Assembly: GCA_949126835.1 (NCBI GenBank)
Contig: OX421493.1
Location: 59,257,898 to 59,321,897 of the forward strand
Direction: 5' to 3'
From: Anisus vortex
Taxonomy: Eukaryota > Mollusca > Gastropoda > Planorbidae
DNA length: 64,000 nt
Position numbers and translations under genes: made by a program. The notes beneath the pieces were generated by a model. That model was given only the letters and a program-made list of their open reading frames with translations. It ran no database searches and was not told the DNA's origin. Position 1 is the stretch's first letter; each line of letters starts with the position of its first letter. Shown here in pieces: positions 22,014 to 60,990 of the stretch.

Positions 22014-22473
22014 GTTAATACAGCCTTGGTACACTTGTGACTTAATGATATTGTTATAAAAAATCATAGTAGCAGAAAGGAGTGTGCCATTCTTGGTCGA
22101 TAACTAGGTAGATAAACTGCACTATACAGTTTTAAACTTACAATTATGTTCAATGGCTCTGTCTTCTTTTTTGATAATATAATTTATTTAGATGAACAAA
22201 AAAATATTTAAATAAAATAACATATTTTAAACTCTAAACGTTCCTGTTGATGTCCTATTTTTATTGTGGGACCATCAAACATTACTACCAGTCTTTTCAG
22301 AGTATTTGAGTTGCAGTAGCTGAATTATTTGCTATTACTATTAAACATCAAAATAGACGACATCACCACAATATAAATTCCAACTTGTAATCAATGAAAG
22401 AACACCTTTTTGCAGCATATTATTTAATAACAATTCATTAACAGTTCACACTTCACATAATCTTTAATACTTA

Positions 22474-22702
22474 TGGTTATAGTATTGCTATAAAATAGTT
22501 TCATATTGAGTACTGAGTCTACACATTTTTATGAGTGTTCATTACAAGAACAAGAAGTCGACTGAAGAAATAAGCATGGTCAATCACATGACTATCTACT
22601 TCCTATATAGGTTTTCTTAATATCCAAAAATGGGTTTTATTTCGACTTTTTAATTATTAATATAGTTACTACCTATATATATTATTTGGTTACTCCATAG
22701 CA
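22474..22702 (-). repeat. 3' LTR of the RT-less element
   Basis: 229 bp, matching 29428-29657 base for base by eye except one T. It is bordered inside by the polypurine tract. Confidence 0.9.
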
Positions 22703-23804
22703 TACCCCCCAACCACAGAGAAAAAATAATAATTTATTATTATTTTTGATACGAAAAATGTTTACAATAATGAAAAAAGAATTATCTTAATCTTAATTAA
22801 TGCATATAATCATTTATTTAATAATACATAGAGAAAAAAAATTCATTTAATATATGTGCAAACAATCAAAAAAACATATTTATAGGCAGAAATATGACAC
22901 AAAGAATAATGTCTAATGTTTATATGACAATTAGTCATAGACAACTATCTTTAGGTATTGTCTAATCAACTTCAGTAATACTGAGATAAACTATTGGATA
23001 TCAGTGATGTGTATCGATAATTATTATGCTAAATACTCATCAAGGCTGTCGAGATTATCTATTATCTTTATCTCACAAAGTCTATAAGGATTCCATGAAA
23101 AAAAATTTTTCATACAACATTTATTATTTTATACAACAAAATTAATATAATACTAATGTCGGTTTTTTCAATTGTCATTTTGTATTGATATTTTTATTGA
23201 TTATTCTTGATTTTTATTGATTATTATTGATTGTTATAGATTATTATTTATTATTGATTGATATTCTCAATAACATTACTTACAATGTAACATGATTATC
23301 TTTAATCTTAGTTTACAATAAAATATTACACAAGTTATTCAAGTCTTCCCTTCAATTATATATTTATATTACACTGCTCATCTTCCTGTGAGTCTTATAT
23401 GTATCATTTATCTATTGGCTTCAATGCTATATTTAGTCTTACATGAATACAATACAATATTATCATCTAATGCTCTCTCTCTAGAGTCTCACATAGGCAT
23501 TTCATTATTATATCATTCTTATTTCAATTCCTCTAATGCTTTTTTTAAAGACTTACATAGGCATATTAATGTTAACATATGGCATAACAGATTCACTGTT
23601 CAGAGGCCACAAAATTTTATGTGCTTAACAGTCTTACCAAACTGTTCAGAGGCTACATAAAAAAAATTATTCCAATTATTTTATACCAGTATCCATATTT
23701 ACATATTTGTTCTTTACAAAGGAAAAAAAATGTTATCATGTCATTATATCTGTTACTGAAAATATCATATCCTTTCATAAATTTAGTTATTCCTATATAT
23801 AATT

Positions 23805-26800
23805 TTATTGATTATACCTGAGTTCTCTGCTAAAATCCCTTAGAATTTCACAGCATTTATTCAATGTTATTTTTCTATGTTCAGATTTGCTAATATCATT
23901 GTCTGGTTTATTTTCCATTTCAATTATTTTGCTTTTATTTTGTCTGTTATAGTTTCTTAGAATTGCACAACATTTATTTAATGTCATTTTTGCATGTTTT
24001 GATTTACTTATATCATATTCTGATTTATTTTCAATTACTTTGTTTTCTTCATAAGTTTTCAAATTGTTTAAATGAACAATTTTCTCTTTGTTATTAATGT
24101 TAACCTTGTAAAATACATCAGATAGCTTAAGTATTATTTCAAAAGGTCCTCTCCATTCCATAGTATTGCCACTGCCAATTGGCAAATAAACAAGTACTTT
24201 ATTACCAACTTCTAGTTTTCTCATGTTCTTATGAATATTTTCTCTGATTAAAGTTTTAGATTTGATTTCTTCATTTTTTTGTACAGCAAATTCATAAGCT
24301 GTTTTCATATGTTTTTCAGTTTTATTGACTAAGTCAAATGGAGACATTTTTTTTTCTTTAAGTCCTAATAATTCTGATTTGAAATTATCCAATGGTCCAT
24401 TGGGATTTTTGCCAAGCACTAATTCAAATGGTGAAAAACCTGTGCTTTCATGAACCGATTGTCTATAAGCAAACAAAATAGCTGGAAGGTAATCATCCCA
24501 TTCAAATGGATGGTCTTCACACACTTTTGTTATCATTTGTTTTATTGTTTGATTAGCCCTTTCTATCATACCATTTGATTCAGGATGGTATATAGAACTA
24601 AAAATTTGAGTGATTTTTAACATTTGTGCAAAAGCTTGAGTAAGATTTGATTTGAATTGAGTTCCATTGTCACTCAATATGAACTTTGGAAAACCGAAAC
24701 GACAAAAGATAGGTAAAAGAGCATTACAGACCCTTTCTGCAGTTATTTCCCTTAATGGAACTACCTCTATCCATCTACTTCCCATGTCTATAATGGTTAA
24801 GGCAAACTTTGCTTTGGTAGTTTTAGTCTGCTTCATGGGCCCTATTATATCAACTGCTATCTTGTAAAAAGGTTTGTTTATGGTATCGGTCATTTGTATT
24901 GGAGCCTTATGTTTAGAATCTTTTTTATTATGTCTAAGACAGGTATCACAGCTTTTAATAAATGTTTTCAAATCTTTTTCCATTTTAGGCCACCAGAAAT
25001 TCTTTTTGAGTTTACAAACTGTTTTCTTGCTACTCAAATGACCTGACAATGCATTGTTATGCGAAATTTGCATTACTTTGACAGTTAATGTTTTAGGTAT
25101 AACTATTTGAGTTACATCTAATTTAGTGTCCTTTCTACAGAGAATTCCATTTATTATTTCAATGTTTTTATTTTTAACCTGACCTTTTTCAATTTCTGAT
25201 ACCATTTTAATTATGTATGGATCTTCTTTCTGTTCTTTTTTTAGAGTTAGCTCATCAAAAGGCATGTTTATTAAACTTATATTTTCTGTTTTTTTCATTT
25301 GGGTTTCCTTTTTATGAGGACTATCAATGTATGATAATATCTCACTCTTCATTTTAGTAAAATCAGATATTTGATTTTTAGCAATGTTGAATATTTGTTT
25401 ATGACCTTCTAAATGTCTACATAGTGAAATAGCATGTAATTCTTTTGGTACATTGTTTATTTCACATTGACTTTCAAATTTGCTTACATACTGTTCTAGT
25501 TTTTCTGTTCCATTCCATTTGGGAATAGGATTATCCTTTTCATTATTTATGGATAAGTCAATATTAGGTGTCTCATTAAGAATATTATTTTCTGACTTTC
25601 CTATGGTTTGTAAGAAATTAAAAGTTTGTAGAGCAGGGTAAAATTCTTGTTTTGGTAAATCTACTAACTTTTCATTTTGCAATAGAACAGGTTTCAAATT
25701 CAAGTCATTGGATTTTTCATTCATCCATTTTTGAAAAATGTCAAAACTATTATCATGTTTGACATTGAAAGAATTACCAATAATTAAAGGTGCAACACAG
25801 TTTTTCATTATGGCTGCCTCTGCTTTTCCTGTAAGCCAAGGACAATCAATGTCTATTATAGTGACAGGACAATTTACAGTGGAACCATTTCCAAGTTTTA
25901 TTGTATCCACTCTTATTATATTGGTGGGTTTCTGATTTGGAATGATACTTTCATCTATGCATATTATACTACTTCCGGTGTCTCTTAGACAGTATGTGGT
26001 CTTTCCTTCCACATAAGCAGGAAAAAGTATTAATTGACCCCTGTTTTCAAATATGACATTATTTGATTGAGATGTGGAATTGTTAAGTTTTCCTCTATTT
26101 CTTCTATTTTGGAAATTTGATTGAGGTCTATTTTGAGTATTAGGAAAATCTTGTCTTGCAAAATTTTGATTTGGCACATTGTTATTGGAAAAATTCTGAT
26201 TTGGCATATTTCTGTTTCCAAAATTTGAAAAATTCTGATTTGGAAAGTTTCTATGATCAACATTTGATCTATTGAAGTTTGGATTGAAATTTCTACCTCT
26301 TGCATTGTTATTTCTGTAACAATATTCTGATGAATGGTTTGTACCATTGCAAAAAATACATCTATAATTATTAGATTTTGGTTGATTACCAAATTTTTTT
26401 TTATTGCCAAATTGATTATGTCTAGACCTAGGAGGTGAATAGCTCCTTCTTCTATGCTGAATTGTATTTACTGTTTGATTTTGTTTAGTCAGTTCTACAT
26501 TAGGATGACTATCTTTAAAATTTGAGATTGCATCTATCAAATTTTCAACTGTCTTAACTTTTCTTTCCATAATGTGAGTAAACAATGGTTTAGAAGCTTG
26601 TTCTAATACTTTATCAACAACCATAATTTCTATAATCTCATTATGATTTTTGGTATCTATTTTTACTAAGTCTAACCAGGTAAGTAAAAATGTTTTCACT
26701 TCAGACACAAAAGCTCTCGGTTCTATCTTGTCTGTTAAGATAAAGTTATGGAACTTCTGTCTGTAATAATCCTCAGAGTGAATAAAGAATTTTATTAACT

Positions 26801-27401
26801 GTTCTTTGATAATGGCATAATCAGTTATTTCTTTATCAATATGTGATAGTGCTTCCCTACCCTTATCTTTCAATTGTGGGATAAGGTGAATGTAACATTC
26901 TGAAATGGGAATCCCATATCCTTTACATGTTGCTTCAAATAAATTTAGAAAATCAACAATTTTCTCTTTTCCATCAAAAGGAGGCATTTTGAATCTAACA
27001 CCATGTTTTGATTTTTCATTATTTGTTTGCTCAACTTTAGTATTTTGTAATTTAGCCAACTCCAATTCATGAGTTAATTTTAGTTGAGTTTCTTTCAACT
27101 CTTTTTCTTTATTCATTTCTAGTGCTTTCAATTCTTTTTCTTTATTCATTTCTAGTTCTAGTTGTTTTTGTTTAATTTCATTATCAAGTTCTTTTTGTTT
27201 AATTTCATTATCAAGTTCTTTTTGTTTAATTTCATGAGCCCTTAATTCTGCTCGTTCATCTCTTTCCTTATCTGCTAATTCTTTTTTCAATTGCTTAACT
27301 TTATTTTCAACAAATTCCTGATATTCTTTCTTATCAGTAATACCATATTCTTTTGCCAACAATTTAGCCTCATCATAGAGTAATTGAACCTTTGACTCCA
27401 T
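23805..27401 (-). CDS. Gag-protease-second capsid-integrase polyprotein, no RT
   Basis: An intact 1198-aa ORF. Approximate residues: 1-130 Lys/Glu-rich coiled coil with internal repeats (NEIKQKELD, MNKEKELK); 138-290 gag capsid-like; 348-361 CCHC zinc knuckle (CIFCNGTNHSSEYC); 365-435 Asn/Phe repeats (PNQNFSN); 474-476 aspartic protease DTGSS; 624-693 a second capsid-like segment; 781-821 integrase HHCC finger; 851, 911, 947 integrase D, D, E with 35 residues between the last two; 1066-1105 GPF-type C-terminal domain; 1122-1198 two copies of a 37-residue repeat. In Ty3/gypsy elements RT and RNase H lie between protease and integrase; here that place holds the extra capsid-like segment. Every catalytic residue I can check is kept. 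It may act as a trans-mobilised element, or be a domesticated gene, though the LTRs argue for the former. Confidence 0.92.
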   Translation of the reverse strand: MESKVQLLYDEAKLLAKEYGITDKKEYQEFVENKVKQLKKELADKERDERAELRAHEIKQKELDNEIKQKELDNEIKQKQLELEMNKEKELKALEMNKEKELKETQLKLTHELELAKLQNTKVEQTNNEKSKHGVRFKMPPFDGKEKIVDFLNLFEATCKGYGIPISECYIHLIPQLKDKGREALSHIDKEITDYAIIKEQLIKFFIHSEDYYRQKFHNFILTDKIEPRAFVSEVKTFLLTWLDLVKIDTKNHNEIIEIMVVDKVLEQASKPLFTHIMERKVKTVENLIDAISNFKDSHPNVELTKQNQTVNTIQHRRRSYSPPRSRHNQFGNKKKFGNQPKSNNYRCIFCNGTNHSSEYCYRNNNARGRNFNPNFNRSNVDHRNFPNQNFSNFGNRNMPNQNFSNNNVPNQNFARQDFPNTQNRPQSNFQNRRNRGKLNNSTSQSNNVIFENRGQLILFPAYVEGKTTYCLRDTGSSIICIDESIIPNQKPTNIIRVDTIKLGNGSTVNCPVTIIDIDCPWLTGKAEAAIMKNCVAPLIIGNSFNVKHDNSFDIFQKWMNEKSNDLNLKPVLLQNEKLVDLPKQEFYPALQTFNFLQTIGKSENNILNETPNIDLSINNEKDNPIPKWNGTEKLEQYVSKFESQCEINNVPKELHAISLCRHLEGHKQIFNIAKNQISDFTKMKSEILSYIDSPHKKETQMKKTENISLINMPFDELTLKKEQKEDPYIIKMVSEIEKGQVKNKNIEIINGILCRKDTKLDVTQIVIPKTLTVKVMQISHNNALSGHLSSKKTVCKLKKNFWWPKMEKDLKTFIKSCDTCLRHNKKDSKHKAPIQMTDTINKPFYKIAVDIIGPMKQTKTTKAKFALTIIDMGSRWIEVVPLREITAERVCNALLPIFCRFGFPKFILSDNGTQFKSNLTQAFAQMLKITQIFSSIYHPESNGMIERANQTIKQMITKVCEDHPFEWDDYLPAILFAYRQSVHESTGFSPFELVLGKNPNGPLDNFKSELLGLKEKKMSPFDLVNKTEKHMKTAYEFAVQKNEEIKSKTLIRENIHKNMRKLEVGNKVLVYLPIGSGNTMEWRGPFEIILKLSDVFYKVNINNKEKIVHLNNLKTYEENKVIENKSEYDISKSKHAKMTLNKCCAILRNYNRQNKSKIIEMENKPDNDISKSEHRKITLNKCCEILRDFSRELRYNQ

Positions 27402-29024
27402 TATTATTTATTATGAATGTCAAGATTTATTATATTATAGTATAGTACAATTATTATAATGCACTTTTTTATAGTACAGCAATGTTTTATTCCTATACTG
27501 GATGGCAATATTTATTAACTATTGAATGAGCATTTTTATATTACTGAATGACAATATTTATTAAATACAGAATGAGCAGTTATATATTATCACAGCAACT
27601 TTTTTTTTTTTTTTTATGCTATAGTAAAATGTTTATAATTCAGAATGCAAAATGCTAGAATGTCAACAATTATTGGCTATGCCGAGACATCTACTATGGC
27701 TTGTTTATTTTATTATTATTATCAATTTTATAGTAGAGTTGAAAGCAAGTGCAAGTCACTTTTTACTATTATGACTTATTATTACTATATAGGTTGCACA
27801 ATTATTTTCCGCAAAGCAAAGTACAATCTTATTATTACCAATGGTAGCACATATATAATAGTATTATTATTATTAAGGATGGCATATAACAATTAGATTA
27901 ATGTTATCATAAGCCACTATGATATTATTCTTATGAGCAATGGAAATGGATCAAATTATTATTAGTATTGGAAGTACATTTTCATTGTGATTACTGGAAG
28001 TACATTTTCATTTTCATTAATGCCAATACACAATAATTTTACTATAATTAATAGCAATGTAAATTCTAGATAATATTATTACAGTAGCACTGCAAAGCAC
28101 AATATTATTTTTATGTAGGTTATTTTACCTGTTATATTGTGAATATTTTGTACATTTGTAGTTACATGTATTAGATATCAATTATTATTTTGTTAATTGT
28201 AGTTACATGTATTTGGGCACTACTTAAATCATATAGTTATGAATCTGAATATTCATATTATTATTATCTTGGTGAACTTATTATTGTTAATGTTCTTACC
28301 ATAGACCATTATACTCAGAGAGCAAAAACTAACCAATGCATATTAATGATATTTCAAAAAATACACAACAAAAAAATTATATCAAGTAACAATAGAAAAA
28401 AACACAATCACAATACACTAATGCTGCTTGGACCACAAATGATAGAGGAATTTTTGACAAAGAATCACAACATGTATAACATTGACAAGACTATAGTAAT
28501 TTTACTTTAATAATTCTTAACAATAACAAACAAAGTCAAGACAACTAACAGAAATAACCCTAACAAAGAATCATTTCTAATCAATCTCTTTTTAAGAAAC
28601 AGAAATAGATGATAGACAGAATAAGAATAGACAAGAGATTTATTTTAGAAATTCCCGCCAACCAGAGCCCGCTTTATACATATAGGCCTATATATATATA
28701 ATTCATACTAATGAATGTAAAAAATATGATTAAATTAAAGATTACTTAATAATCCAAATGAAAACACATTCACTGTATGAAATTACTGCAATGTAAATCC
28801 AGAGTAGAAATCCAGAAGAAACTTAATTAATTATTTAATAATCCAATGAATGTTCACACTGTATCAAGTTGAGTTGCTTCAAGTTTCCACTTCAGTATGG
28901 TATAATCCAATTTTAGAATGAACACAAGAAAAAAAATGTATACCATTAATTAAAATTAATGTCAATGTCTTTGGTATACAGATTAAATATTAATTATATT
29001 TAAAGTTATTTAATGTTATTTATT

Positions 29025-29165
29025 TATATTTCAACATATGATTATGTCACATCAGATTTCAACACCTGGTCGTGTCACATCGGATTTGAACATATGGTTA
29101 TGTAGGCTACATAAAATTCAACACATGGTTGTGTCACATCGGATTTGAACATCGGACTTGAACAT
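29025..29165. repeat. Short tandem repeats in the leader of the RT-less element
   Basis: Three to four imperfect copies of a unit around TGTCACATCGGATTTGAACA and CACATGGTTGTG. They lie a few hundred bases inside the 5' LTR, where packaging or regulatory signals of LTR elements normally lie; function unknown. Confidence 0.6.
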
Positions 29166-29427
29166 ATATATATAGTTTAGGTTCCTTGTTAATAACATGT
29201 GGGAACGAAACTTTTTCCGGTTGCAAACAATGACCTATGTACAGTCACTTTTTTTTCGATTTTATGTATCGAATTTTCCAATGATGAAATATTTGTCATC
29301 GGTGGACAAACGTTATATTTTCTTAGAGCTATTATAGTGCTCAATCATATAAATAGTATATGTATTTGAAATAATCGACTCAGGCTTCAGTTTTGTTCAA
29401 AAACTGGTACTCACATAATTTTCCATG

Positions 29428-29657
29428 TGGTTTATAGTATTGCTATAAAATAGTTTCATATTGAGTACTGAGTCTACACATTTTTATGAGTGTTCATTAC
29501 AAGAACAAGAAGTCGACTGAAGAAATAAGCATGGTCAATCACATGACTATCTACTTCCTATATAGGTTTTCTTAATATCCAAAAATGGGTTTTATTTCGA
29601 CTTTTTAATTATTAATATAGTTACTACCTATATATATTATTTGGTTACTCCATAGCA
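29428..29657 (-). repeat. 5' LTR of the RT-less element
   Basis: 230 bp, near-identical to 22474-22702. The sequence just inside (minus strand CATGGAAAATTATG) would be the primer-binding region; I do not recognise the tRNA. Confidence 0.9.
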
Positions 29658-30097
29658 GTTCCCATTTGGAATAAAACGACCCTTACATTTGAACAACAAA
29701 GATGTTGTACAAAATAATATTTTTTGTTAGTGTGTTTTTTTTTGTAATTTTATTATTTTGTATATTACTTTAAAATGTTTTCCTGTTTAGATTTGTTGAT
29801 ATTGTATACTTTTTTGTTAGTATTCATGATATTAAAAATAAAAAAAAAAAAAAATAAAAAAAAAGTTTGTATGCTGATGAAAGACTATCGAGAGATGGAT
29901 CGTTTGCTTTGATATTCCTGCTGTTTAATAAGTCGAAGAAATTTGTAGATTTTTATGTCTCGCTGTCTAGGGTAGGCGGTTTTGGTACCCTATAATATAG
30001 AGCAATACAATTAAGTTTGAAATACCAATATACAAACGAATGCAGAATTAGCCTCAAAAGTACATCCGGCAATTAAATATTTACATTTTTCGATATG
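29658..30097. other. No gene seen; A-rich tract
   Basis: Contains an A-rich run at 29836-29864, and at 29890-29935 a possible worn MITE fragment (ATGGATCGTTTGCTTTGATAT). Confidence 0.4.
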
Positions 30098-56080: not shown

Positions 56081-56319
56081 TGTCATGTACGCACCCTGTA
56101 TTTTATCTTGTTTTGTTGTGCACTAAATATAATCGGTGTTGGATTGAAAGGTGCGACATGTTGACAGTTCACGTTCGAGTTTTGATGTCGTACAAAGTGA
56201 TGTATTTATTCTGAGTTGTATTTTTTTTTCATTCATTAAACAGTTTGTAATTAACACTCGTTTCGTGTTAATCAAGTCAGACGATAAACTAGCCTAAGCA
56301 CTGTAAGTCGCTTATTACA
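56081..56319 (+). repeat. 5' LTR
   Basis: 239 bp with TG…CA ends; pairs with 60753-60990. Confidence 0.92.
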
Positions 56320-56420
56320 TGGGGGCACTCGTCCTAAAGGATCTGTTGAGTAAGTTTGGTTTGTAGAAAAGGAAACTGCGAATTTTTCTTTTAAAGACTA
56401 TAAGTGTATAAGCCTTCATA

Positions 56421-57070
56421 ATGGATACTTCGGTGGCACTGCCCGATGTGTATGATAGTTTTGTAGGGGCAAAAGAGGAGGATGCGTCCTGTCGGTCACC
56501 GCCGGTTTTGTCTGCGGCAAATCAGTCAGTCAACGCTCAAATCGAATTAGCTAGACTGAGAATAAAACAATTGGAGATTGAAGAGAGAATCGAGTTGGCG
56601 AGAATGGCGCAACGAAATCAGATGGCGCCAACGCAAACCCCTGCGCACTGTAAGCAACAGTTCGACAAGAGTCTACGAAACTTCGCGGAGAGTGAAGATC
56701 TGGAAAACTATTTACTGGTTTTTGAAGCCACGGCGGAGAAGAGCAATCTACCGAAAGAACGCTGGTCAAGTCAGCTTTTACATAAGCTCACAACGGAACT
56801 GCGAGATGTGATGATCGCCCAAGGCATTGCGAATTGTGAAGATTATGACCACGTCAAGGCGCAATTACTCAAATACGCGGGCTATGTGGAAGAGACTTAC
56901 AGGAAAAAGTGGGATTCCCTCACTCCTAAAGGGGACAATTTCAGGGAGTTCGCTATGACTTTAAGGAGGACTCTTGAAAGCTGGATGAAAAGTTCTAATA
57001 CCCCAAAAACATTCGAGGGTCTCAGAGATCTGATGTTTAAAAGTAGTACAAGGAATTATCACCGGAGGTA
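56421..57070 (+). CDS. Gag of the second LTR element (first part)
   Basis: 216-residue frame. Residues 40-70 are a charged helix (ELARLRIKQLEIEERIELAR). From about 80 a capsid-like domain: SEDLENYLLVFEATAEKSNL, LLHKLTTELRDVMIAQGIAN, VKAQLLKYAGYVEETYRKKW, FREFAMTLRRTLESWMKSS, FEGLRDLMF. The frame ends at 57071 in NYHRR. The homologous continuation (YKELSPEVVIDLAHKKPES) is in the −1 frame from about 57047. The −1 frame has stops just before, and I see no slippery heptamer, so this looks like a mutation rather than programmed shifting. Confidence 0.8.
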
Positions 57071-58255
57071 GTGATTGATCTCGCACACAAGAAACCCGAA
57101 TCAGTAGAAGGTGCTCTAGACATAATAGATAGTTTCAAGGTTGCTGGTAAAGAAGTTAGGATACATATTGCTGACCGAGGGGTCGGAGAAAATCGTGCCG
57201 CCTCAATCTTGTCGGATAACTATAACGCTCCTGTACAGAAAGATTTAAAGCCCAACATCCGGGACAGTAATATACAGAAAGTCACACAAGAAACCATGGC
57301 CACCAGGACAAATAGATTGCAATGCTTTTATTGTAAAAAAGAAGGCCACATGAAGAAATATTGCAGGAAACTGGAGAAGGCAAACCAGACGACAAAAAAA
57401 GTGGTGGCGTTGATGAAAACGCTATGGAAGGAAGAGAAGTACAGCTCAGAGGATAAAGATACGATTAGGACAAACTCACAAGAGCAGCAGACTAGGAAAC
57501 TGAATACGGTTCAACTGGAAAATTCGTCGTATTGTTGTGCTTGTCAGGAAGTTTCCTCGACTGAAAGCACGTTCATAGACAGGAAATCTCCAATAACATT
57601 GTCTCGGGGGTTGGAAAACTCGGAGAGGCGTCTGGTTAGTTGGAACCATTGTCCTGTGAACTCTGGACAGAGTTTATCGGCAGTAGGTGTCGAGGGTAAA
57701 CATCTAGTCGTGCCTGCAGAAGAGTCCTATGAGAAGAGTCAAGACTATCAAGAGAACTCAAGTGATTCGAGACTTACGAACTTTTTGCCGTTCATTTCTG
57801 AGGGTACAGTGGCATTACCTGATGACGATGACAACGTTGGTTCTCCCATTAAGATACTGAGAGATACAGGTGCATCTTTATCCGTACTACTCTCATGTGT
57901 CTTGCCTTTGTCGTCAAGGACATATACGGGAAACAGCGTCTTGTTGCAGGGTGTCGAGATGGGAAGCCTCCGAATACCGCTGCATCGTGTGAAGTTAAAG
58001 TCTGAATTGGTCACCGGAGAAGTTGTGGTAGGCGTTATGTCGACACTACCATTTGATGGGATTGCCTTGCTAATTGGCAATGATTTAGCAGGTGGTCGGG
58101 TGAAACCGGATCCCATTGTGACAGACATACCTGTTGTTGATGATTCGGTAACTGAGGACAATGAATTGTATCCTGTTTGCGCTGTTACTAGAGGTATGCG
58201 TCAGAAAGAGACTCGTGAAGAAAAGTCAGTGCAGAAGAGACTGAAGTGGAAGTAG
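57047..58255 (+). CDS. Gag C-terminus, zinc knuckle and aspartic protease
   Basis: Continues gag in the −1 frame, then a CCHC knuckle CFYCKKEGHMKKYC at about 57328-57369, a Ser/Thr/Glu-rich linker, and a retroviral-type protease with ILRDTGASLSVL near 57855-57890 and LLIGNDLAGG near 58067-58096. The frame stops at 58255. The next 180 bases, over shifted frames, give SSREKLIRLQKEDVEVAALL, the pre-integrase segment. So protease leads straight into integrase; the roughly 2 kb of RT/RNase H expected of a Ty3/gypsy element is absent. Confidence 0.8.
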   Translation, partial: YKELSPEVVIDLAHKKPESVEGALDIIDSFKVAGKEVRIHIADRGVGENRAASILSDNYNAPVQKDLKPNIRDSNIQKVTQETMATRTNRLQCFYCKKEGHMKKYCRKLEKANQTTKKVVALMKTLWKEEKYSSEDKDTIRTNSQEQQTRKLNTVQLENSSYCCACQEVSSTESTFIDRKSPITLSRGLENSERRLVSWNHCPVNSGQSLSAVGVEGKHLVVPAEESYEKSQDYQENSSDSRLTNFLPFISEGTVALPDDDDNVGSPIKILRDTGASLSVLLSCVLPLSSRTYTGNSVLLQGVEMGSLRIPLHRVKLKSELVTGEVVVGVMSTLPFDGIALLIGNDLAGGRVKPDPIVTDIPVVDDSVTEDNELYPVCAVTRGMRQKETREEKSVQKRLKWK

Positions 58256-58444
58256 AGTTGGGAGCTACGTTTTCCAAAGTCTATTTGAAGAGGAACATAA
58301 AAAGACCTCTTCGGGAATTTTGTCATCACGTGAAAAGCTGATACGTCTACAGAAGGAAGATGTTGAGGTTGCAGCTTTACTGAGATCGCCGTATCTGATG
58401 AAGAGGAGAAAACCTCGGCAGTCTACTATTTTTTCAAGAATGAT

Positions 58445-59113
58445 GTGCTGATGAGGCATTCGAGACCGCCAGAAGCGAATCCGGATGATGACGACTGGAG
58501 AGCGGTAATTCAAATCGTCGTGCCGCTAATCTATCGTTCTGATATCCTTCAGCTAGCCCATGACTCGTCTTTTGCTGGTCATTTTGGAGTCAATAAAACG
58601 TATCAACGGATACTTCGCTATTTTTACTGGCCTGGTTTGAAACATTATGTTGCCGCCTATTGCAGGTCATGCAATACATGTCAGTTAGTGGGCAAGCCAA
58701 ATCAGACGATCCCAGTTGCGCCATTACATCCGATTCCGGTCCTCCATGAACCTTTCAGTCATATAATCATCGATTGTGTGGGCCCCTTACCGAAGTCGAA
58801 ATCGGGTCATCAATATCTGCTGACAATCATGCATGCAGCATCTGGATATCATGACGTCATACCAATTCGATCGATCACAGCCGAGCGGATAACTGATCAT
58901 CTGATGAAGTTCTTCACCAGATATGGTTTGCCAAAGTCGTTGCAAACTGACCCAGGTGGTCATTTGACTTCTTGTATTTTTCAGAAGATTCCTGATAAAC
59001 TTACTGATGGAGATCCGATGTTGAGTGCGTGTCATTCGCAGTCCCAAGGTGCGTTGGAACGTTTTCATCAGGCATTGAAGACGATGTTCGGACTTACTGC
59101 ATGGATCATCTAA
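58445..59113 (+). CDS. Integrase of the second LTR element, cut by the hAT insertion
   Basis: HHCC finger (LAHDSSFAGHFG … YCRSCNTC), catalytic core with D in IIIDCVGPL, D in LQTDPGGH and E in GALERFHQ; 35 residues lie between the last two, so the triad is complete. The frame ends a few codons into the hAT element at 59116. Beyond it the frame 59869-60120 continues with WDKGVPLMLF and a C-terminal-domain-like part (FVLLPASPG … PFTVIQSEKDYYDV). About 100 residues of the usual intervening region seem to be missing, an additional internal deletion. Confidence 0.8.
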   Translation: MLMRHSRPPEANPDDDDWRAVIQIVVPLIYRSDILQLAHDSSFAGHFGVNKTYQRILRYFYWPGLKHYVAAYCRSCNTCQLVGKPNQTIPVAPLHPIPVLHEPFSHIIIDCVGPLPKSKSGHQYLLTIMHAASGYHDVIPIRSITAERITDHLMKFFTRYGLPKSLQTDPGGHLTSCIFQKIPDKLTDGDPMLSACHSQSQGALERFHQALKTMFGLTAWII

Positions 59114-59115
59114 AA

Positions 59116-59860
59116 CATAGGTTCTCAACGGGGGCGATATTGCCCCCCCAGGGGGCGTTGAGAAGCTTTAGGGGGGCGATAACATTCCCGGGGGCGATGA
59201 AGGGCAAGTGGGCGGTACATACGTACCTGCTATAATTTCAACAACTCAGCTATTTGAATCGATTAGTTTTTGGATGAAATGTGATGTAAACGCAAGTGCT
59301 ACTAAATTTCTGATATCCCCCAACAGTAGGCATACATATTACTGAACAAATAAGAATCGCAATCACTTTTCGATGAAGTAGGGGTTAGTACTTGGCAAAT
59401 ATGTTATGCGGCCGTCTCGTCTTATGGTTGGTTCACGGACTGTCGCCTTAACATCGGTTACTATTACTAATTTTACTCGTTTTACTGAGATGTCCTTTAA
59501 CGCGTTTGAATTCTTTGTATTGAGGAACCACAATAGCTGAGCGGTATAGATACGTAGTAATTATACAAACTGGGTAGTTATTGAAATGCTTGAAAATATT
59601 CATATAAATTCTTTAGTCATATAATATTTATACAATTTTCAAATAATTTGTACAGTTCTATCATATCATTTCAAAGTTATAAATGCAAGCCATTCAGTTT
59701 TTTTGTAAAAGAAAAACAAATTGAAATATTACCTCAAATGAAAAGGGTTAATTATCTCCCTTTAATTAACAAATGTTTCCGCTAAAATTAAGTTGGGGGG
59801 CGGTGAGCGGAAAAAAAATTTAAAAGGGGGCGGTGAGCCGAAAAAGGTTGAGAACCTATG
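59116..59860. mobile_element. 745-bp hAT element with perfect 8-bp duplication
   Basis: CATAGGTTCTCAAC and GTTGAGAACCTATG are exact inverted repeats. ATCTAAAA is present on both sides (59108-59115, 59861-59868). Ends are rich in GGGGGCG. The right part, read in reverse, resembles the 3' halves of the hAT remnants at 2297-3085 and 44440-45330 (AATTAAAGGGAGATAATTAACCC). No transposase ORF. Confidence 0.9.
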
Positions 59861-60752
59861 ATCTAAAAGCATGGGACAAGGGAGTACCGTTGATGTTGTT
59901 TGTTACTCCACAGCACGACATCACGGACAATTACGAGTCTGGGAACGGAATCAGGAAAAGTTTTGTTCTATTGCCCGCCAGTCCAGGGAAGGTCGTGGTG
60001 TATTTGACAAGTGTATTGGTTGGTGCTATGTCTAAGCCGTTTACGGTCATCCAAAGTGAGAAGGACTACTATGACGTTTCTATGATGAGAAATCAGTTCA
60101 GAAACATTTCTTCCAGCAAGAATGAGAATGGGATAGCTCTCACGTTTATGATAGAACTCCAGCAGATGAAGATTGTTTGCCTGGACAAAAATCATGGCAT
60201 GGAATTTGTCGTGTGTACGTTGAGTCGATGGATGGATCAACATATGGAACTGTTGGTGATGTTGTACATACAGTACTTGGCAACGCTTGGAAAAGATGGG
60301 GGTTCTTGCATTAACTCCCCAAGCACCAAGGAGAACATGGACTACATGTTACCGCTGACACACAGTCAGACATTTGGCTGCTACATCGTTTTCATGGGAA
60401 ACTATCCCTTGTATGTTACATATTTGGTTTTTTATCTCATAATGACATTTCTTCTATTGCCATTTCCACACCAGGACGGAATGTATTTTCTTATGGACTT
60501 TTGTTACATGTCATGGGGGGAATAGACAGGATTGTTAAAGAAAGGGGAGATTTTGTTGCCAAAGTATTGTTTTAAAGTTTTAATAGAGCCTGGGTGGTGT
60601 GTTTTATCTTAATGACTCTTATGTTTTAGAAATTTTGATAATGTATTGAGTTGTTTTAGTTTGTTTTGGAGAGAAAGGATGTGTTTTCTCTTAAAATTCG
60701 CCATTTGTGGTTTAAAAGGTGAATTGTTAAGTTTAGTAGGGGGGGGGGGGGG

Positions 60753-60990
60753 TGTCATGTACGCACCCTGTATTTTATCTTGTTTTGTTGTGCACTAAGT
60801 ATAATCGGTGTTGAATTGAAAGGTGCGACATGTTGACAGTTCACGTTCGAGTTTTGATGTCGTACAAAGTGATGTATTTATTCTGAGTTGTATTTTTTTT
60901 CATTCATTAAACAGTTTGTAATTAACACTCGTTTCGTGTTACTCAAGTCAGACGATAAACGAGCCTAAGCACTGTAAGTCGCTTATTACA
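60753..60990 (+). repeat. 3' LTR
   Basis: 238 bp, about 98% like the 5' LTR by eye. Its end lies 26 bp from the splice donor of the receptor transmembrane exon. Confidence 0.92.

Follow-up and report, generated by a model that had tools for sequence, protein, structure and literature searches.

Organization of the element

The DNA analysed here, referred to as the window, is a stretch of 64,000 nucleotides from the planorbid snail Anisus vortex (assembly GCA_949126835.1, contig OX421493.1, positions 59,257,898 to 59,321,897 of the forward strand). It contains a long terminal repeat (LTR) retrotransposon whose single open frame encodes gag, protease (PR) and integrase (IN) without reverse transcriptase (RT) or RNase H (RH), and which carries between PR and IN a second domain resembling the N-terminal domain of capsid (CA-NTD), hereafter SEG. 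From its anatomy and history it belongs, with good confidence, to a semi-autonomous branch within a family of Gmr1-like Ty3/gypsy elements that have a CA-NTD embedded in Pol, and the window copy is itself very probably a young, individually defective member of that branch.

The element occupies positions 22245–29657 on the minus strand and, as judged from the LTR alignment and flanks, is bounded by 5-bp GGAAC duplications at 29658–29662 and 22240–22244, so that both marks of an LTR retrotransposon, TG...CA LTRs and a 5-bp target-site duplication, are present. The 3′ LTR (22245–22702, minus strand) is complete at 458 bp and runs TG...CA in the LTR alignment, whereas the 5′ LTR (29432–29657, minus strand) is truncated to its first 226 bp, which are identical between the two LTRs. 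This 226-bp repeat is only part of the LTR. The remainder of the 5′ LTR, the primer-binding site (PBS) region and approx. 84 nt of the leader are missing: the leader of an RT-bearing copy, L039, aligns to window position 29439 only from its nucleotide 85. Both marks of autonomy, an RT-RH of its own and a PBS after the 5′ LTR (the PBS being placed by its position after the LTR), are absent, and without a PBS replication of the window copy cannot be assumed.

The intact frame of 1198 amino acids at 23805–27401, and its order of gag, CCHC knuckle, DTG protease, second capsid-like segment and D,D-35-E integrase, were described in an earlier note on this sequence, made from the letters alone, and are confirmed by translation, Pfam, a CA-NTD profile and the sequence itself; the strand, then left unstated, is the minus strand, as for all features that follow. 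Translation inspected by eye gives a lysine/glutamate-rich, coiled-coil-like N-terminal part (residues 1–129, 27015–27401), followed by the gag CA-NTD (residues 132–205, 26787–27008; CA-NTD hidden Markov model (HMM), E 1.6e-18) and a SCAN-like capsid C-terminal domain (residues 211–298, 26508–26771). The latter is matched by Pfam SCAN above its cut-off on the capsid piece (E 1.4e-6) and just below it on the whole open reading frame (ORF; E 1.8e-5, 24.9 bits, the cut-off being 27), and by the PEG3 SCAN structure 4bhx (6.7e-7). A CCHC zinc knuckle is evident from the sequence (residues 348–361, 26319–26360), and the aspartic protease (25722–26036, RDTG at residue 473), which searched as a separate piece scores below the cut-off of Pfam Asp_protease_2 (E 0.0024), is 72% identical with the PR of P0003, the closest public RT-bearing protein. 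SEG (residues 621–691, 25329–25541), recognized by the CA-NTD HMM and hhalign, precedes the integrase, of which the H2C2 zinc-binding domain (24924–25100; Pfam 3.3e-18), the D,D-35-E catalytic core (24567–24875; Pfam rve 4.8e-12, D-E spacing 35) and the C-terminal domain (24057–24149; Pfam Integrase_p58_C 3.2e-6) are all present. The frame closes with two diverged repeats of approx. 35 amino acids, termed TAIL (23808–24017), which comparison of copies finds only in those lacking RT; TAIL gave no significant Pfam or PDB match, and at the DNA level its region (23823–24036) contains a 97-nt unit twice, in copies that have diverged to 79% identity. As the earlier note had expected, no RT was found: Pfam gave no RT match in the 1198-aa ORF, and tblastn with the RT-RH of P0003 returned nothing better than E 0.41 across the 64-kb window.

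RT-bearing and RT-less copies in the genome

We compared the 30 best-scored copies (L009–L038, the window included) of 150 scored matches to residues 600–740, themselves taken from 1637 candidates, together with 11 copies picked for their long frames. Of the 150 matches, 11 have frames of at least 1600 aa, four of 1380–1460, 21 of 1100–1250 and 100 of 940–1070, while 13 frames are shorter and one is odd. The 11 longest, with frames of 1635–1684 aa, bear RT, and all of them read CA-PR-SEG-IN-RT-RH in one frame; their SEG is 100% identical with that of the window over 101 residues and their IN core 98–99% identical. RT is absent from 29 of the 30 best-scored loci, the exception being L032, so the window copy is not the lone deletion that the earlier note had named as a possible refutation of its proposal.

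These data also indicate how the two classes differ. Against three RT-bearing copies the window has approx. 94% DNA identity over 24019–29439 and again from 23021 to 22574, and the intervening 1 kb (23022–24018), comprising TAIL and 3′ non-coding sequence, stands where the RT-bearing copies have approx. 1.5 kb of RT-RH after IN. As far as the retrieved stretches reach, this piece was found in 29/29 RT-less loci and 0/11 RT-bearing loci (L032, too short for the comparison, is excluded from the latter), which argues most simply for one origin. TAIL likewise closes the frame in 29/29 RT-less loci and in 0/11 RT-bearing loci with the frame end covered, and its repeat make-up differs between family copies. 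Of 567 candidate TAIL matches, 150 were scored; no frame around these exceeds 1241 aa, the frames being of 900–1249 aa for 96 matches and shorter for the other 54.

Only six of the 29 RT-less loci have the IN core as in the window, the other 23 having lost all or most of it through three junction types, seen in 18, three and two copies respectively (frames are identical in two of the three second-type copies). Each of the 23 remains in frame through the integrase C-terminus and TAIL; if the three types were independent deletion events, all would be frame-keeping by chance approx. 1 time in 27. As the commonest junction could be derived from the second via a further in-frame deletion, the IN core was lost at least two separate times.

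Three further observations concern individual copies. L013 and L014, approx. 390 kb apart on contig C140 of G000, are RT-less with identical frames and perhaps reflect a segmental or assembly duplication. The SEG match at G000:C39:128932-129354 is reported with a frame open over 65060 aa, which may reflect masking or filling with N. The public protein P0002 (974 aa) has a window-like TAIL and the commonest IN-core junction; the longest contig of its source is 3558 bp, so that a transcript assembly is possible; if it is one, RT-less copies would seem to be expressed.

LTRs shared by the two classes

The RT-bearing copies have LTRs of 454–455 bp running TG...CA, and 5-bp duplications were found in all four of those in which a full LTR pair and its flanks were covered. 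An RT-bearing partner with the same LTR, which the earlier note had proposed to look for, was found: five of the six RT-less loci examined besides the window (L051–L055) have the LTR of RT-bearing L039, at 92–99.6% identity over the parts covered, and carry its full leader. The LTR–leader junction, lost in the window copy and in L050, is kept in these five, and their LTR ends and PBS position are those of the partner, as described for semi-autonomous elements. The existence of RT-bearing copies with the same LTR makes borrowing of RT in trans plausible, and RT-less copies probably use RT made by the RT-bearing ones. In addition, LTR pairs were 100% identical over the covered part in all 15 loci with a pair, of both classes, among the 18 examined (four pairs are complete, and L043, L049 and L050 have no pair in the retrieved stretch), which indicates that both classes have moved recently. 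Both L043 and L050 are without roughly the first 1.3 kb of leader in the retrieved stretch.

Selection on the RT-less copies

Non-synonymous (N) and synonymous (S) variants were counted in 28 RT-less copies (a pair with identical frames being represented once) at residues 130–599, 741–852 and 1051–1198, which lie outside the search query, using codons that differ at one base only; the numbers are small, the several tests are uncorrected and the copies represent the best-matching tenth of candidates. Variants present in at least two copies numbered 48 N/57 S (pN/pS 0.20), compared with 73 N/22 S (0.78) for singletons (p 7e-6). The contrast was marked in the capsid, with 3 N/17 S passed on and 10 N/3 S in singletons (p 0.0007), and was also seen in TAIL (13 N/9 S and 17 N/2 S; p 0.04), the alignment of which is uncertain, and in the IN C-terminus (7 N/9 S and 11 N/2 S; p 0.05). 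Restricting the variants outside TAIL to those absent from RT-bearing copies gave 35 N/27 S passed on against 69 N/19 S in singletons (p 0.007), and in the capsid these branch-private variants were 0 N/4 S against 10 N/2 S (p 0.008). This pattern fits a branch that may still be supplying capsid.

The RT-less copies might instead be non-contributing passengers of a very recent burst, their frames open for want of time to decay. The identical LTR pairs, where covered, would be expected of such a burst, branch-private protease variants look relaxed (7 N/1 S), the window copy has no PBS, and the 54 of 150 TAIL matches in frames under 900 aa point the same way. However, passengers should not pass on capsid variants so unlike the singletons, nor would they be expected to keep the frame across three IN-core junction types in 23/23 copies, and we therefore consider this explanation unlikely.

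SEG is related to the capsid N-terminal domain

The assignment of SEG to the capsid family was made with a CA-NTD profile built from 68 independent gags, SEG bearers being left out. This profile matches the window SEG with E 3.1e-9, as well as the window capsid, and finds SEG in six out of six proteins with E-values between 6.8e-11 and 5.8e-6 at Z = 123, and profile–profile comparison by hhalign gave 97% and E 1.3e-10. When the two capsid-like segments of the window were aligned, the score of 69 exceeded the maximum of 54 from 2000 shuffles; the contrast was weaker for the wider stretches of residues 130–300 (73 against a shuffle maximum of 68) and 1–590 (80, equalled by 2 of 2000 shuffles). 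SEG itself has no Pfam match, and its AF2 model is a four-helix core with pLDDT of 86–91 per block. By these sequence comparisons SEG is a true relative of the CA-NTD, and the earlier description of residues 624–693 as capsid-like holds, with the qualification that only the N-terminal half is duplicated, the SCAN-like C-terminal half occurring once. The notion that SEG is a linker whose helices resemble a CA-NTD by chance is very improbable, as the SEG-free profile recovers it in all six of these proteins and the SEG of P0003 has a further match, with E 0.003, in the gag of another, unrelated element of the window.

Two CA-NTDs were found in seven of 123 proteins compared, counting the window's own and one near copy; this set derives from the best 120 of 323 matches, and the query itself favoured proteins with IN before RT. 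An IN-RT tree of 62 sequences chosen from the 123 covers several animal phyla, with no record labelled Gmr1, and unites the five SEG carriers that have RT in a single clade with support of 100/99. Its sister pair, P0009/P0010, and the next branch out, P0011 (Physella acuta), are without a second CA-NTD; P0013 (Biomphalaria glabrata) begins near IN and is uninformative on SEG. Similarly, six SEGs separate from 20 capsids, chosen from those found, with support of 100/99 in a 26-domain tree, in which one long branch (P0008) is a reason for caution. SEG is 22–31% identical with its own capsid and 24–64% identical with other SEGs, and IN-RT has diverged to approx. 50% identity among the carriers (P0003 compared with P0005–P0008). 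As the carriers form one clade and the SEGs one group, it is simplest to suppose that SEG was gained once, diverged from capsid and was then retained while IN-RT diverged.

Position of RT in the lineage

Outside this genome, the RT-bearing protein P0003 (1643 aa) is 69% identical with the window over residues 1–1128 and has SEG at the equivalent place, with RT and RNase H downstream of IN. P0005–P0008 likewise have SEG between PR and IN and retain RT, and IN precedes RT in 118 of the 120 proteins that have both domains. The PR-IN gap is 52–139 residues in six relatives without SEG, compared with 175–235 in five SEG carriers, which leaves no room for RT there in the former. The expectation that RT and RNase H should lie exactly between PR and IN is thus not borne out, since in the relatives they follow IN, and nor did the capsid-like domain take the place of RT: SEG is equally placed in RT-bearing elements, so that it is not a stand-in, and RT was lost from behind IN. 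The earlier model of a frame-maintaining replacement of RT-RH, which would account for a copy with no RT and a capsid-like domain between PR and IN, can be given almost no credence in view of the 11/11 genome copies and five public proteins that have both SEG and a downstream RT-RH, and of the short gap in relatives without SEG. The stable design that it envisaged is supported, in that SEG has one origin (support 100/99) and the RT-less copies, of which there are many, have kept their frames, but not as a substitution of RT by SEG.

Integrase upstream of RT has been described for the Gmr1 clade (PMC8220671, PMC6238403), as has a SCAN-like capsid C-terminus (PMC4592553, PMC4131045). The first feature is present in the RT-bearing family members (11/11 copies and P0003) and is unreadable from the RT-less window copy alone.

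Proposed history and mechanism

The sequences show that a second CA-NTD came to lie behind the protease and ahead of the integrase in an ancestor of this Gmr1-like clade, most simply in a single event, and that it stayed in the descendants, the RT-bearing members encoding CA-PR-SEG-IN-RT-RH in one frame. One branch in this genome lost RT-RH, has approx. 1 kb with a repeated tail in its place after IN, kept its frame and became numerous, and most of the sampled RT-less copies lost the IN catalytic core as well, at least twice separately. With a common LTR and leader, and LTR pairs identical where covered, both branches moved recently. RNAs of RT-less copies may be packaged and copied by the RT-RH, and mostly also the IN, of RT-bearing copies, and the RT-less product may mainly supply Gag, as suggested by passed-on capsid changes that are nearly all silent. 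SEG, for its part, may use CA-NTD contacts to dock the Pol part on the Gag lattice and so bring IN and RT into the particle; as Pol is not made separately but lies in the one frame, a CA-NTD placed behind PR and ahead of IN could anchor the Pol part to the Gag shell, and this is the most likely role for it. A fuller version is possible but doubtful as a whole, namely that SEG is a permanent docking module in Pol and that RT-less copies are specialized Gag donors with a new, selected tail, the IN core having been dropped repeatedly in frame with its zinc-binding and C-terminal ends kept, and RT-bearing siblings supplying RT and strand transfer.

Several observations weigh against the proposed history and mechanism. 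In RT-less L050 the 3′ LTR is present, but the 5′ LTR is missing and the leader is reduced to its later part, and RT-bearing L043 likewise shows no 5′ LTR and a partial leader. The window copy combines the lack of a PBS with a 3′ LTR that is only 80% identical with the LTR of L039, and so further from it than those of L051–L055. The sampling favours young copies and sites within SEG are biased. In the selection tests no significant contrast was found for nucleocapsid, protease and linker (p 0.68 to 1) or for the IN N-terminus (p 0.11); the branch-private contrast weakens when TAIL is removed (22 N/18 S against 52 N/17 S; p 0.035), the private protease variants show no sign of constraint, and in 12 RT-bearing controls the contrast was similar but short of significance, at 15 N/29 S for passed-on variants and 49 N/45 S for singletons (p 0.067). 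Fold searches with SEG gave no significant match.

Comparison with known systems

The lineage resembles the Gmr1 clade in the placing of integrase upstream of RT and in the SCAN-like capsid C-terminus, and differs from it in the second CA-NTD between PR and IN, for which no description was found in searches of open-licence papers; the window branch differs further in having no RT-RH and a tail of its own. A capsid domain lodged in Pol and kept over a long divergence suggests a direct route for enzymes into the particle. The vertebrate zinc-finger SCAN domain is hypothesized to have originated in the C-terminal half of a Gmr1-like capsid (PMC4592553); SEG, in contrast, is an N-terminal half, inside a mobile element.

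The RT-less branch would represent an animal case of semi-autonomous elements such as those of wheat, where RLG_Wilma and RLG_Cereba have been proposed as partners of RLG_Sabrina_SA (gag-pro) and RLG_Quinta (gag), respectively (PMC9744471, PMC11302176). The wheat elements similarly have no RT, an intact gag frame and partner enzymes proposed for them, and RLG_Quinta and RLG_Cereba have LTR ends and PBS in common. They differ in their plant hosts and in having no IN, whereas the window type has a full IN and the commoner type its ends without the core, and in that their partner is a separately named family, whereas here it belongs to the same family at approx. 94% DNA identity over 5.5 kb. In the snail, the loss of RT and of the IN core can be traced stepwise, with the frame kept and copies multiplying.

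Other elements

The second LTR element of the window lies at 56081–60990 on the plus strand, with LTR pieces 98–99% identical. Its gag is capsid-like and lies in a broken frame; a CCHC knuckle, an LRDTGAS protease and an incomplete integrase match are also present, and tblastn with P0003 detected no RT in it; as PR and IN are approx. 650 bp apart, it may also be a Gmr1-like element after loss of RT. Finally, in the public Bulinus truncatus gene model P0004 an ankyrin-repeat, ion-channel-like protein continues into a Gmr1-like gag, SCAN included, and the beginning of a protease; this is probably an annotation fusion.

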